Shown here: positions 7,441 to 34,961 of the stretch, one piece after another | Numbering within the stretch: position 1 is the stretch's first letter | Layout of the letters: each line of letters opens with the position of its first letter | NCBI GenBank assembly: GCA_018817425.1 | Contig: JAHITX010000077.1 | Span: 1 to 43,093, forward strand | DNA length: 43,093 nt | Direction: 5' to 3' | Source of the DNA: Pseudomonadota bacterium | GTDB taxonomy: Bacteria; Desulfobacterota; Desulfobacteria; Desulfobacterales; RPRI01 | The notes under the pieces: model-generated | The model's input: the letters and a program-made list of their open reading frames with translations, nothing else | Database searches by the model: none | What the model was told of the DNA's origin: nothing | Made by a program: the position numbers and the translations under genes

Positions 7441-7561
7441 TTATGATAATAATGATACGATAGAACGGCATAATATTATATCAAAACAACCCATAGCTAA
7501 ATCGACATGGCTATGAGTTATACTGACCCGTTTAATACAATATATTCGTAAGATAAATAAC

Positions 7562-7703
7562 GAACCAATTGCAAAACGCCCCATTTTGACCGATCTCAGC
7601 GTTGGGCTCAAATTTTTAACCTCAAAATACTCAATGTATTCCTGCGGTTAAACTTTTCGCCCGCCTTGATCTTGACCAAACCGAAACGTTTTGAAACTGG
7701 CTC
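7562..7703. repeat. MITE-like element, about 142 bp, with imperfect terminal inverted repeats
   Basis: The ends are inverted copies: CCAATTGCAAAACG (7565-7578) against the complement of CGTTTTGAAACTGG (7687-7700), 12 of 14 matching. A fragment of the same element in the opposite orientation lies at 34868-34921. The element at 36177-36321 shares its internal layout (an AAATACTC-x-A-x-GTA block and GCCTTGATCT). No open frame is present, so it would be a non-autonomous dispersed repeat. Confidence 0.6.
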
Positions 7704-7740
7704 TAACGTGAATTAGAATTTCAATCCAAGGGAAGATATT

Positions 7741-9410: not shown

Positions 9411-9803
9411 TTATTTTATATTTTTTGAAAATAAACATGTAGCACTATAAAACCAAAAGCATAAACCAATAATTGTATAAATTATATTCGATATAGCAAA
9501 GTTTAATGGAGCTTCGCTCTTGTGTTTGCCGCGATTGCCATCTGCCAAATTTTTCCACAGATATCCACTACGAATTTGAGCAATGGGTGTTCCGATAAAT
9601 AAATAACCAAACATAATAAAGAATAATGCGCGATATTGATTCTTCGGAATATCTGCATAGACGTGAATCAAAGCTATAGATGTAAACAAGATAAGCGTTG
9701 GTATAAATACAATTGGAGTATTAGATTTTATTTTTTTATTTTTTGTAAAATCCTGCTCCAAGGCATTTTTACGTTCTTGTTTTATTCTTGCTTTTTTTTC
9801 CAT
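9411..9803 (-). CDS. Small three-helix membrane protein
   Basis: A 130-aa protein. A charged N-terminal segment of about 25 residues (Lys/Arg/Glu-rich) is followed by three hydrophobic helices, near residues 30-50, 58-75 and 103-122. No family was recognised. The start codon is ATG but the ribosome site is weak. The flanking 290 bp up to the RAYT gene (9804-10094) contain nothing recognisable beyond the transposase promoter. Confidence 0.55.
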   Translation of the reverse strand: MEKKARIKQERKNALEQDFTKNKKIKSNTPIVFIPTLILFTSIALIHVYADIPKNQYRALFFIMFGYLFIGTPIAQIRSGYLWKNLADGNRGKHKSEAPLNFAISNIIYTIIGLCFWFYSATCLFSKNIK

Positions 9804-12330: not shown

Positions 12331-13458
12331 ATGATAGAAGAGTTTAAGAAGATTTATGACACCAGGCACGAGTATGTCGGAGAATGGAAAGAAAAACACC
12401 CTGATCGCAAGATAATGGGATATATCTGCACATCCATGCCCGAAGAGATAATCTATGCGGCCAATGTTTTGCCGATCAGAATACTTGGGGCACATGAATC
12501 CCAAAATATAAGTCAACAGCATATGATGGGAATGTTTTGCCCTTTTTCCCGTGATGTTTTAGCTCAGGGCCTTTTGGGAAGGTACGACTATCTTGATGCC
12601 ATAGGCATTACTCATACATGCCAACATATCTATCAGGCATATGAAAGCTGGGTTTTGCATAAAAATATAAAAAGCTTTTATATACCAACGCCAAACACTT
12701 CGCAAACGCCGCATGCCCTGCCTTATATGAAGGGCCAGCTAAAGCTGTTTATGGAAAAGCTTGAAAGCTGGACCGGTAAAAAGATAAGCGAAAATGATTT
12801 AAGACATGGCATTAAAGTAGTTGATACAACCCGACGCTTAATGAGACAAATATATGAAATGCGAAAGTCTGAAACACCACCCATATCAGGGCTTGAATCC
12901 ATGCTTATGGTTGTTGCTGCTCAAATGTCAGACAAGGAAGAATTCAACAAAATATTGGAAAATGTTATAAAGGATGAACTCCCCGGCCGTAAAGCAAAGG
13001 AAAATCGGGGAATCAGGTTAATGCTGGTAGGCAGTGAACATGACGATGTGAAATTTATTGAAATGGTGGAAAATCTTGATGCAATTATAGTCATCGATGA
13101 TCACTGTACCGGCAGCCGTTATTTCTGGAATACTACTGAACAAAAAGAAGATGCACTGACCGATATAGCCAAACGATATATTAATAAACCGCCCTGCCCT
13201 ACCAAGGATTTTCCTGCACGAAAACGTCCGGCTCATATTATCGATTTAGCCAGGAAATGGAACGTCGCAGGAGTAATAGAGATTCAGCAAAAATTCTGTG
13301 ATCCCCATGAGCTTGATAAGGTTGCCGTTTCCAAGGCTTTGGAAGAAGCAGGTTTTCCAATATTGAACCTGGAAGCTGATGTTACAATGCCGGCAGGCCC
13401 TTTCAGAATAAGGGTTGAGGCTTTTTTAGAGATGCTTGGTTCCCAAGATTTATTTTAG
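12331..13458 (+). CDS. Benzoyl-CoA reductase / 2-hydroxyacyl-CoA dehydratase family subunit, BcrC-like
   Basis: A 375-aa member of the HgdB/BcrC superfamily. It has the opening CTSMPEEIIYAANVLPIRILG, Cys residues in MFCPFSRD and THTCQHIYQ as likely 4Fe-4S ligands, the block DDHCTGSRYFW, and QQKFCDPHELD near the C-terminus. The last two blocks look closer to BcrC/BadD of class I benzoyl-CoA reductase than to typical lactyl-type dehydratases. These enzymes need an ATP-dependent activator (BcrA/BcrD or HgdC type), which is not in this operon. RBS GAGGTGGG. Intact. Confidence 0.85.
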   Translation: MIEEFKKIYDTRHEYVGEWKEKHPDRKIMGYICTSMPEEIIYAANVLPIRILGAHESQNISQQHMMGMFCPFSRDVLAQGLLGRYDYLDAIGITHTCQHIYQAYESWVLHKNIKSFYIPTPNTSQTPHALPYMKGQLKLFMEKLESWTGKKISENDLRHGIKVVDTTRRLMRQIYEMRKSETPPISGLESMLMVVAAQMSDKEEFNKILENVIKDELPGRKAKENRGIRLMLVGSEHDDVKFIEMVENLDAIIVIDDHCTGSRYFWNTTEQKEDALTDIAKRYINKPPCPTKDFPARKRPAHIIDLARKWNVAGVIEIQQKFCDPHELDKVAVSKALEEAGFPILNLEADVTMPAGPFRIRVEAFLEMLGSQDLF

Positions 13459-29074: not shown

Positions 29075-29202
29075 CTACGCAAGCAAAAAGTCCAATCCCC
29101 GAAATTCCACTCCGTTGCGTTCATTCATACGCCGCCGGCTTCGCTTCGTCGGCTATTCACTCTCTGCACTCCGCTAAAAAATTTTGCCAAGGGTCCAAGG
29201 GC

Positions 29203-31374
29203 TCAAGTGTCAATGGAAACGGACCTGGAGAGGCGGAAGCCTATACCGTTGTATCGGTCGTCAGGTGGGATGCTGCTACGAAAAGACATCCGGCATCGGA
29301 GCGCATAGTCGCCCCAACTGCCGCCGCGTACCACGCGACTAGAGCCTGTTGGATGACCAATTGGATCTTTCACAGGATCAGAAGGATAATCACCTTTCCA
29401 GTCCTGGCACCATTCCCAAACATTACCAAGCATATCGTACAGTCCCAATTTATTAGGATCTTTTTGGCCAACCCCGTGGGTTTCATCTTCAGAGTTATTA
29501 GCATACCAAGCAATTTTGTCTATGTTGTCTTCATATCTATCCCTTTTAGTCCCTACCCGACAAGCATATTCCCATTCCGCTTCAGTAGGTAGACGAAAAC
29601 CGTTTGCATCATTAATCCTCTTTACGCTTTTCCCATTGATTTCATAGGCAGACTTATATCCTGTTTTATCGGAAAGACTGTTACAAAATTCCACAGCATC
29701 AAACCATGATAAACTCTCCACTGGTTTATCAACCCCCCTAAAATGACTGGGGTTTTTACCGGTCACTTTATAATACAATAACTGTGTTACAGGATACTTG
29801 TCTATTTCAAAATCACTCACAGTTGTTTCGACTTCCCCTTCTTTTTCATCGCCCATAGTAAATGTACCACCTGGAATCTTTACCATTCTTCCATTTAATT
29901 CATCTTTTAAAGAAGTTTCCTGTGCCTCATAATTTATAGCCTTTGCCCTTGTTTCCGGATTTAAGGCAGGCGCAAGCATAAACACATATCGAGTTACTTC
30001 CTCCTGATTCTCAAACCCTTTATCATGAAACGTACCCCTTTCCTCACATCTTAAGATGACTTCAAGTTTTGAAAAGTGCCGCTCTTCCAACCATCGATCA
30101 ACTATCGGGATATCGGTTTTGGTCGGCTTATAAGGCTGTTCCCTGCTCTCTTCAATTTTCTCTTTTTTTGTTTCTACAAGTTGCCGGATTATTTTCTGAA
30201 GCTTTATAAGGTGATGCGGGTAATTTTCAAGTTGACGATAAAGATTTGGAAGCAAAAATGCAATCAAACTCATTTTTATGAGGAGTTCCGGGAGAAAAGG
30301 TTCACAATCCTCTACTTGCTTGCGGTCCGCCACCCACATGGAAAAGGAAATGGCATTTATGAATCGTTTTAAAGTTCGGGGATTATTGCCAAGTGTCTCA
30401 AGTATCGTTTTAATAAATGGTTGTGCATCTTTTAAGTCATTCATTAAAGATGTGATATGACTTAAAAGGTGTTTTGGATCTGCCGGTGGCATCGCAACAG
30501 GAAACTGAACTATCTTATCCAGATAGTCTTTTTCTATATCCGGCAAATCTTCGCGGTTTGTAAGGTATAGTTCCCTGTAACGCACGCGAATACCCCGTTC
30601 TATTACTTCCCTGGCAACACCGATCACAAATACAAAATTCGGTAAATCCAAAAGCACCTTTAAGCCCTCAAGCAACTGGACAGCCTTTTCGGGCAGACAA
30701 CGATCCAGATCATCGATAAATACTACGATCTTTGTACCGAACTCCTCAGCAGCTTTCTGTAGTTCCTGAAGAAGATTATAATAAAGACTCTCGTATTCCT
30801 GAACAGAATCCAAAATACCGGCTTCTTTCTCTTTATTATCAATTTCCTTTTCAGCTCTTCGCGATTCATCAATCATATCTTTAAATTTAAACTTCGACTT
30901 AAGAAGCAACGGAATTTTGATTTCACCTTCTAAGCCATAGGCAAGGGCAATTGGCACCTTTGTGAGTTTTTTTAAAAAAACTGAGACTTTTTTAGAAAAT
31001 TCCCCTTTATCACCTTTTTGTCTTTCATGAACCCGTTTTAATGAAGCGGCCAAGGTATGAAAAAACGGAATAATCAGGTGCTCCTCACCTGCAAACTGCC
31101 AGGGATTAAACCAGACGGTCAGTATCCGGCATTCACTGTCAGTGGCATCAGCGCACAAAGCCTTTTCGATCAGCTTTAACATACTGGTTTTCCCCGAACC
31201 CCATTGACCATAGACACCAATTGTAAAAGAACCACTGGATTCTACGGAACGTATCATCTGGACCAACCCATCACAATGTTCCTGATGTCCGATCCGGTCT
31301 TCTTCTGCTATACTATCCGGCACAACTAACATGGGTGTATGGGTTTCTCTTTTTGAGGGCTTTTTGGAGACCAT
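29203..31374 (-). CDS. KAP-family P-loop NTPase fused to FGE/C-type-lectin-fold domain
   Basis: A 723-aa fusion protein. Residues about 25-350 are a KAP NTPase: Walker A GQWGSGKTS (56-64), VWFNPWQFAGEEH, Walker B VVFIDDLDRC (217-226) and GNNPRTLKRFIN. A helical linker follows. Residues about 495-720 are a formylglycine-generating-enzyme/SUMF1-type domain (MVKIPGGTFTMGDE, GFRLPTEAEWEYACR, GLYDMLGNVWEWCQDW). One of the two FGE active-site Cys is Asp; only C694 remains, so it is more likely a ligand-binding C-type-lectin fold than an enzyme. The C-terminal 44 residues (GGSW to IGFRL) match the layout of diversity-generating-retroelement variable regions. Good RBS (AAGGAG). Confidence 0.9.
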   Translation of the reverse strand: MVSKKPSKRETHTPMLVVPDSIAEEDRIGHQEHCDGLVQMIRSVESSGSFTIGVYGQWGSGKTSMLKLIEKALCADATDSECRILTVWFNPWQFAGEEHLIIPFFHTLAASLKRVHERQKGDKGEFSKKVSVFLKKLTKVPIALAYGLEGEIKIPLLLKSKFKFKDMIDESRRAEKEIDNKEKEAGILDSVQEYESLYYNLLQELQKAAEEFGTKIVVFIDDLDRCLPEKAVQLLEGLKVLLDLPNFVFVIGVAREVIERGIRVRYRELYLTNREDLPDIEKDYLDKIVQFPVAMPPADPKHLLSHITSLMNDLKDAQPFIKTILETLGNNPRTLKRFINAISFSMWVADRKQVEDCEPFLPELLIKMSLIAFLLPNLYRQLENYPHHLIKLQKIIRQLVETKKEKIEESREQPYKPTKTDIPIVDRWLEERHFSKLEVILRCEERGTFHDKGFENQEEVTRYVFMLAPALNPETRAKAINYEAQETSLKDELNGRMVKIPGGTFTMGDEKEGEVETTVSDFEIDKYPVTQLLYYKVTGKNPSHFRGVDKPVESLSWFDAVEFCNSLSDKTGYKSAYEINGKSVKRINDANGFRLPTEAEWEYACRVGTKRDRYEDNIDKIAWYANNSEDETHGVGQKDPNKLGLYDMLGNVWEWCQDWKGDYPSDPVKDPIGHPTGSSRVVRGGSWGDYALRCRMSFRSSIPPDDRYNGIGFRLSRSVSIDT

Positions 31375-34867: not shown

Positions 34868-34921
34868 AGAGCCACTTTCAAAACGTTTCAGTTTGGTCAA
34901 GGTCAAGGCGGATGAAAATTT
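34868..34921. repeat. Fragment of the 7562-7703 MITE-like element, opposite orientation
   Basis: About 54 bp, containing TTTCAAAACGTTTC, GTTTGGTCAAG and TCAAGGCGG, matches the complement of 7654-7703 with few differences. It is the outer third of the element only and lies between two minus-strand genes. Confidence 0.65.
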
Positions 34922-34961
34922 TGTATATAATATTTTTTTCATCTCTACATCTCCCGACATT

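Follow-up and report, generated by a model that had tools for sequence, protein, structure and literature searches.

A KAP NTPase–lectin gene with a putative orphan variable repeat of the diversity-generating retroelement type in a Desulfobacterales genome

Gene architecture and the lectin-fold domain

We analysed contig JAHITX010000077.1 (assembly GCA_018817425.1) of a bacterium of the order Desulfobacterales over its full stretch of 43,093 nucleotides, in the following called the window, with regard to one gene on its reverse strand. The gene (29203–31374, −; 723 aa, ATG start) fuses a KAP NTPase to a domain with the fold of formylglycine-generating enzymes (FGE) and C-type lectins, hereafter KAP-FGE. 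Its extent is supported by the list of open reading frames (ORFs), by Pfam and by orthologues in two genomes of the same genus, G006 (83% identity) and G009 (81%). Here, G000 denotes the window's own genome, with the window as contig C77, and G001–G009 further genomes of the genus.

Residues 37–343 (30346–31266, −) match the KAP family P-loop NTPase domain PF07693 with 146.8 bits (cut-off 20). Walker A (GQWGSGKT, 31186–31209, −) and Walker B (IVVFIDDLDR, 30700–30729, −) are both invariant across the three orthologues, i.e., the features of the KAP NTPase family (Pfam match and both Walker motifs) are all present. Residues 496–715 (29230–29889, −) match the FGE-sulfatase domain PF03781 with 155.1 bits (cut-off 23.3). 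These two are the only Pfam domains above cut-off in the 723-aa chain; Pfam reports none in the stretch of about 36 residues N-terminal to the KAP match. An earlier reading of the window from its letters and ORFs (the sequence-only reading) had proposed a KAP NTPase with intact Walker A and B joined to a lectin fold, and this is borne out by Pfam and by the motifs.

The best solved relative of the FGE domain by sequence is the variable binding protein TvpA of Treponema denticola (2y3c, E 1.4e-36), while formylglycine-generating enzymes match more weakly (best E 3e-17), and EgtB, PvdO and related enzymes also appear as weaker matches. Modelled by itself with AlphaFold (8 sequences, pLDDT 73, pTM 0.81), the domain gives the same picture, with TvpA at rank 1 of a Foldseek search against the PDB (E 5.4e-20, TM 0.82). 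The lectin-fold display domain of a target of diversity-generating retroelements (DGRs) is thus present by sequence as well as by fold. TvpA shares the fold and the layout of the variable repeat (VR, see below) with the KAP-FGE protein, whereas its solved chain of 294 residues has no KAP domain.

The sequence-only reading had counted one of the two FGE active-site cysteines as absent, which proved wrong. In alignments to three bacterial FGEs (6muj, 2q17, 5nxl), a gap and an alanine stand opposite what we take to be the two catalytic cysteine positions, i.e., both are missing. Cys694 of the KAP-FGE protein aligns with a different column from either of them. For human FGE, the structure matches name mutants of C336 and C341.

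The variable repeat and its adenine-directed differences

The 3' end of the gene shows the layout of a DGR variable repeat, running from RGGSW to IGFRL as had been proposed. We delimit the VR as the block homologous to a template repeat of G002 (29225–29328, −, from the template alignment), and judged by its sequence it is a VR of the DGR type. Within it, a codon comparison of the three species places the hypervariable codons at residues 686–710 (29245–29319, −; alignment columns 690–715).

The template repeat lies on contig C72 of G002, has the translation RGGGWNNNARNCRSANRNNNTPDNRNNNLGFRL and directly adjoins a truncated reverse transcriptase (RT) with YMDD motif, which matches phrog_1423 with E 1e-27. 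Its 12 Asn codons align with the variable codons of the KAP-FGE genes. At these positions the window gene reads GGC GAC TAT / CGA / TTT / AGC AGC ATC / GAC / TAC AAC GGT, that is, the form NNY at 11 of 12 (counted by eye), which agrees with the NNC/NNT form noted earlier for the supposed variable codons. Mismatches to the G002 template are enriched at adenines in each of the three KAP-FGE VRs (p 2e-4, 4e-7 and 3e-5) and also in the VR of a second gene of G000, a NACHT-like-FGE fusion described below (p 3e-3). Across these four VRs, 25/30 template-A sites vary vs 25/74 other sites (p 4e-6). On the same G002 contig (locus L064, 1858–3522, −), the truncated DGR-like RT abuts an ORF whose end is the initial part of an FGE domain, in a deletion-like arrangement.

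We also compared the orthologues of G000, G006 and G009, with one genome per species. The chain is well conserved, lowest in the inter-domain stretch and in columns 690–715. Between G006 and G009, substitutions at codon positions 1+2 relate to those at position 3 as 20:3 in the VR vs 93:152 elsewhere in the gene (p 5e-6); the respective ratios are 26:7 vs 134:202 for G000/G009 (p 1.6e-5) and 21:8 vs 122:188 for G000/G006 (p 6e-4). The dN/dS is 0.7, 1.35 and 2.67 in the VR for the three species pairs, 0.08–0.12 in the KAP domain and 0.17–0.20 in the FGE domain ahead of the VR. Three different residues occur in 25 of the 728 alignment columns, and 8 of these fall within the 26 VR columns (0.9 expected, hypergeometric 6e-7). 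The species differ most strongly in these VR columns, at codons that are AAY in the template; ordinary conservation of the supposed variable codons, which would have spoken against the sequence-only reading, is not what we observe.

The surroundings of the orthologues are partly conserved. In G006, the same two genes as in the window lie downstream of the KAP-FGE gene, after a transposase-like ORF, while on the G009 contig a block matching window 15.6–24.1 kb adjoins the gene. The ORF directly downstream in G006 (L065:12636–13334, +) resembles a Y1/REP-type transposase, and a different ORF of this type lies directly downstream in G009 (L114:2355–2828, +), both named by eye. Short multicopy repeats at window positions 7553–7704 and 34868–34922 are common with G006:C53 (82–98% identical) and possibly form a MITE-like family.

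A cognate template, and with it the best control, is found in G023, a genome from another family of the same order. Its KAP-FGE homologue is full-length, 35% identical and above cut-off for both Pfam domains. After it come Avd (above the NCBIfam cut-off), a template repeat, an RT and a gene of the NACHT-like-FGE type, whose NACHT match of 23.2 bits stays below the cut-off of 26.7. The template repeat and the VR of the KAP-FGE gene show 20 mismatches in 129 bases, which affect 17/30 adenines vs 3/99 other bases (p 1.4e-10), and 19 of the 22 mismatches to the VR of the NACHT-FGE gene are at adenines. Given these mismatches at adenines, the KAP-FGE gene of G023 is a real DGR target. VR substitutions concentrate on template adenines for the window gene with a heterologous and for the G023 homologue with a cognate template. 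The RT of G023 (L105, G023:C47, 4957–5880, −) is without the segment that bears YxDD, and the cassette therefore looks disabled or misassembled.

The KAP-FGE architecture also occurs in loci L115, L116 and L118, and records with Deltaproteobacteria, Aminicenantes and Chloroflexota in their titles contain fusions of this kind. A tblastn search with four RT queries (L084 among them is not DGR-type) found no DGR RT near the named homologues L113–L125, and near L115–L118 and L120 there are only short matches to the template. The search of viral contigs found nothing related to the KAP-FGE protein. In L118 (Chloroflexota CSMAG_1213), two adjacent FGE ends (9636–9775 and 12374–12514, +), one of them on a KAP-FGE protein, are 78% alike; their differences look concentrated in VR codons, and tblastn finds no RT in the stretch examined. 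Within the order, L106 (G043:C6), L107 (G047:C348) and L112 (G048:C232) are DGR-like loci in which template-like repeats occur together with RT matches and several FGE ends; some of the RT matches contain stops. Co-targets within G043 and within G047 have common 3' tails.

Search for the retroelement and a second target in the window's genome

The sequence-only reading noted that RT and template are absent from the window, which is correct, and neither was found in the rest of the G000 assembly (5.12 Mb in 147 contigs, draft; 99.13% complete, 3.6% contamination), as far as our searches reach. The single RVT_1 match in G000, on its contig C72, has the motif SPQGGIISP and is of YADD type; we take it to be a group-II RT, and a search with phrog_1423 returns the same single match. 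A template repeat is not found in G000 by DNA similarity or by pattern search with up to 3 mismatches; in G000 only the VR on contig C82 is recovered. The same pattern recovers the G002 template with 0 mismatches, and its reversal has 0 matches in 12 genomes. Two candidates were rejected, namely the chance match C101:25153–25181 (E 0.014), 29 bases within a stretch without VR layout or AAY runs, and a 3-mismatch pattern match in G006 (C143:27153–27181), which is part of an unrelated reading frame and lacks the VR layout. For Avd (NF033474), G000 shows four weak matches, the best with 32.1 bits at a cut-off of 80. Avd exceeds this cut-off in 4 of the 15 genomes searched (G023, G033, G043, G047) and in none of the ten same-genus genomes G000–G009.

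Among all RVT_1 and phrog_1423 matches of these ten genomes, which are drafts of 63–99% completeness (some only 63–87%), the only DGR-like RT is the truncated one on G002:C72. All others among the 15 RVT_1 matches in 7 of the 9 further genomes, as well as the additional phrog_1423 matches, were rejected as DGR RTs, being of QGxxxSP type, retron-like, next to cas1/cas2-like ORFs (one, G009:C83), odd (one, G004:C318) or fragments, where the classification is by motif. In the G009 case (L053, 1317–3547, +), the RT is followed by cas1- and cas2-like ORFs (named by eye), resembling RT-associated CRISPR adaptation modules.

An SQ motif marks the RTs of DGRs. We inspected 30 RT loci, one each from 30 of the 34 genomes with a match: 5 combine an SQ-type motif with YxDD, 14 combine QGxxxSP with [YF]xDD, and the remaining 11 have no ORF with both motifs. 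The SQ-type loci with YxDD belong to G032, G033, G043, G047 and G054, i.e., none lies within the genus. Since these five were recovered, the RT search does detect real DGR-type RTs.

A whole-genome check for a template copy, a DGR RT and Avd had been proposed together with the sequence-only reading. It returns none of the three (Avd staying below cut-off) and reveals in their place a target-like VR on contig C82. Of the two conditions named as refuting that reading, the one on the machinery thus counts against it and the one on codon conservation in its favour. The respective gene (L067:8119–10896, −) encodes a NACHT-like-FGE protein with 24.8 bits for NACHT (cut-off 26.7) and 147.6 bits for FGE, and has no DGR cassette in the stretch examined. 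It shows the same VR layout, and in an alignment of 148 columns that extends beyond the stop codon, its 3' tail is 74% identical to that of the KAP-FGE gene. Because VR anatomy and tails are alike and G023 carries the same pair of a KAP and a NACHT-like target, the two genes of G000 seem to have once been co-targets of a single, now lost cassette.

The tail of the KAP-FGE gene (29130–29202, −) is also related to that of the G009 orthologue and contains a possible imperfect hairpin at 29130–29157. A hairpin or cruciform downstream of the VR is described as a feature of DGR targets in passages of PMC3240598. The stem is imperfect in the window gene, a perfect 7 bp in the C82 gene, and, judged by eye, has lost one arm in G006.

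A receptor that may have outlived its retroelement

We consider it likely that the gene, taken as a whole, is a past DGR target that now carries an orphan VR on an NTPase-coupled receptor. The product would be an intracellular receptor with a ligand-binding tip, encoded by about 12 codons, on its C-terminal FGE/C-type-lectin domain. In the past, a DGR would have randomised these codons, i.e., an error-prone RT copied the template repeat while mutating adenines, and the 3' end of the gene was overwritten with the mutated cDNA. The KAP NTPase may be gated by the bound ligand, in line with proposals for lectin-sensor/NTPase proteins in bacterial conflict systems. Since RT, template and Avd are not in the assembly, the VR would now be orphaned and is probably frozen; this would not hold if the cassette lay outside the assembly or in other cells of the population.

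Several observations weigh against this reading. The G002 template is heterologous for G000, G006 and G009, such that the adenine test on the window VR is indirect, and 26/89 non-A sites differ too. G000 has changed at three non-AAY codons that are identical in G006 and G009 (columns 697, 701 and 702). This suggests more than a DGR acting alone on a template like theirs, i.e., ordinary drift or selection once the retroelement had stopped, or a lost template that had diverged. In the domain model, confidence at the VR is among the lowest (pLDDT <50 at domain residues 188–194 and 200–212), and we thus argue the exposure of the VR from TvpA only; the full-length AlphaFold model (3 sequences, pLDDT 32.5) is too poor for use. 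The downstream hairpin is weak, with z-scores of −1.54 (G000), 0.22 (G009) and −2.10 (C82), where 18, 108 and 6 of 200 shuffles, respectively, fold as well; being not clearly better than shuffles, it was dropped as firm DGR evidence. Finally, no partner or effector gene was recognised beside the KAP-FGE gene, such that a defence role rests on precedent. With regard to the neighbours, no effector or EAD gene was recognised by eye in the ORF lists, and no EAD profile search was made.

The frozen state is what separates our reading from an alternative in which the gene is still an active target, diversified in trans by a cassette in an assembly gap or in other cells of the population. G000 is a draft of 147 contigs, and passages of Doré et al. 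(PMC10907252) describe targets for which diversification in trans is the best explanation, as well as variants whose components are intact at loci found disrupted in the reference. Furthermore, G006 and G009 have strongly different VRs on a conserved gene, which would call for action near or after the species split. We nevertheless regard continuing diversification as unlikely, since an assembly that is 99.13% complete contains no DGR RT, no template repeat and no Avd over cut-off, the only DGR-like RT in ten same-genus genomes is truncated (with the limit that these drafts are 63–99% complete), and the G000 VR has also changed at its three non-AAY codons. The present-tense "hypermutable" of the sequence-only reading is accordingly not supported by the G000 assembly.

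Two further alternatives do without a retroelement or without a receptor. The 3' end might vary through ordinary positive selection, or through gene conversion between FGE paralogues, given that the order is rich in FGE-domain genes ending in the same motif and that two genes of G000 have a common 3' tail. Such an account would have to explain why the changes sit on template-AAY codons with the third base mostly kept, and why a cognate template repeat with Avd and RT adjoins a KAP-FGE homologue. The donor pool is also small, i.e., four FGE domains in G000 with only one other match to the 3' end at E <0.001, and no donor tracts matching the VR with its flanks were seen elsewhere in G000 by DNA similarity. 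We therefore hold this explanation to be very improbable. Still harder to credit is that the FGE domain is a catalytic enzyme of the formylglycine-generating or sulfoxide-synthase type under KAP regulation. The PF03781 match and the weaker matches to EgtB, PvdO and related enzymes speak for it; against it, neither active-site cysteine is present in the alignments, TvpA is far nearer than any enzyme, and the part of FGE that holds the active site corresponds to the hypervariable part of the KAP-FGE protein.

The architecture itself is known. NTPase-FGS proteins are the subject of passages in Kaur et al. (2021, PMC8195603): the STAND NTPase may be replaced by KAP, a DGR RT and a four-helix accessory protein are frequent companions, and the proteins are likened to adaptive receptors; an N-terminal effector or EAD is common in them and not required. 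Related ternary systems are covered in Kaur et al. (2020, PMC7159879), as far as its passages go. The KAP-FGE protein resembles these conflict proteins in joining an NTPase and a lectin domain in one chain. It differs from them in that its chain shows neither an effector nor an EAD at the N-terminus and that the searches of the assembly found no DGR RT and no accessory protein above cut-off. Targets of DGR clade 5D, in the passages of Doré et al. (2024, PMC10907252) on multicellular bacteria, include KAP NTPases; they commonly occur as a pair, each with one CLec domain and an NTPase in the centre (KAP in some), as in G000. Unlike these, the G000 targets lie on separate contigs (C77 and C82) with no cassette found, and a clade is not assignable without the RT. 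The same source describes disrupted and trans-acting DGR loci and states that the antigen-sensor role awaits experimental test. The anti-phage KAP ATPases QatA and PifA have the KAP NTPase region in common with the KAP-FGE protein. Their matches (PADLOC, NCBIfam) are only partial and mainly in the N-terminal half (QatA 150 bits vs a cut-off of 600, PifA confined to 23–409), whereas the C-terminal half is the lectin domain. No Qat partner genes were recognised by eye in the ORF lists.

Since NTPase-FGS proteins with DGRs, KAP included, already appear in passages of PMC8195603 and PMC10907252, the "new kind of recognition or defence protein" of the sequence-only reading is not supported. From its proposal of a DGR-type variable sensor on a KAP NTPase, the VR on a lectin fold stands, while active hypermutation and the new kind find no support. 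The interesting part of the find is instead the machinery-less state. In the literature searched, i.e., among titles, abstract openings and passages, we found no description of orthologous NTPase-lectin receptors that outlive their retroelement in several species.

Our reading, if right, also suggests that target genes can outlive the retroelement, and surveys that start from the RT then miss them; passages of Roux et al. (PMC8144416) state by the authors' own account that remote targets escape their RT-based approach. In that case, G000, G006 and G009 provide three naturally locked receptor variants on a conserved scaffold, with no mutator blurring their sequence, and would be a good start for learning the ligands of DGR-diversified NTPase-lectin sensors. 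More tentatively, the genus may have used the DGR for a one-off affinity maturation, in which NTPase-lectin receptors were diversified, useful versions kept and the mutator repeatedly lost. We treat this as a doubtful extension that draws on the mutator being not found in G000, G006 and G009 and truncated in G002, and on the strong purifying selection on the NTPase. If true, an adaptive receptor would have become a fixed, innate-like one, with each species frozen with its own specificity.

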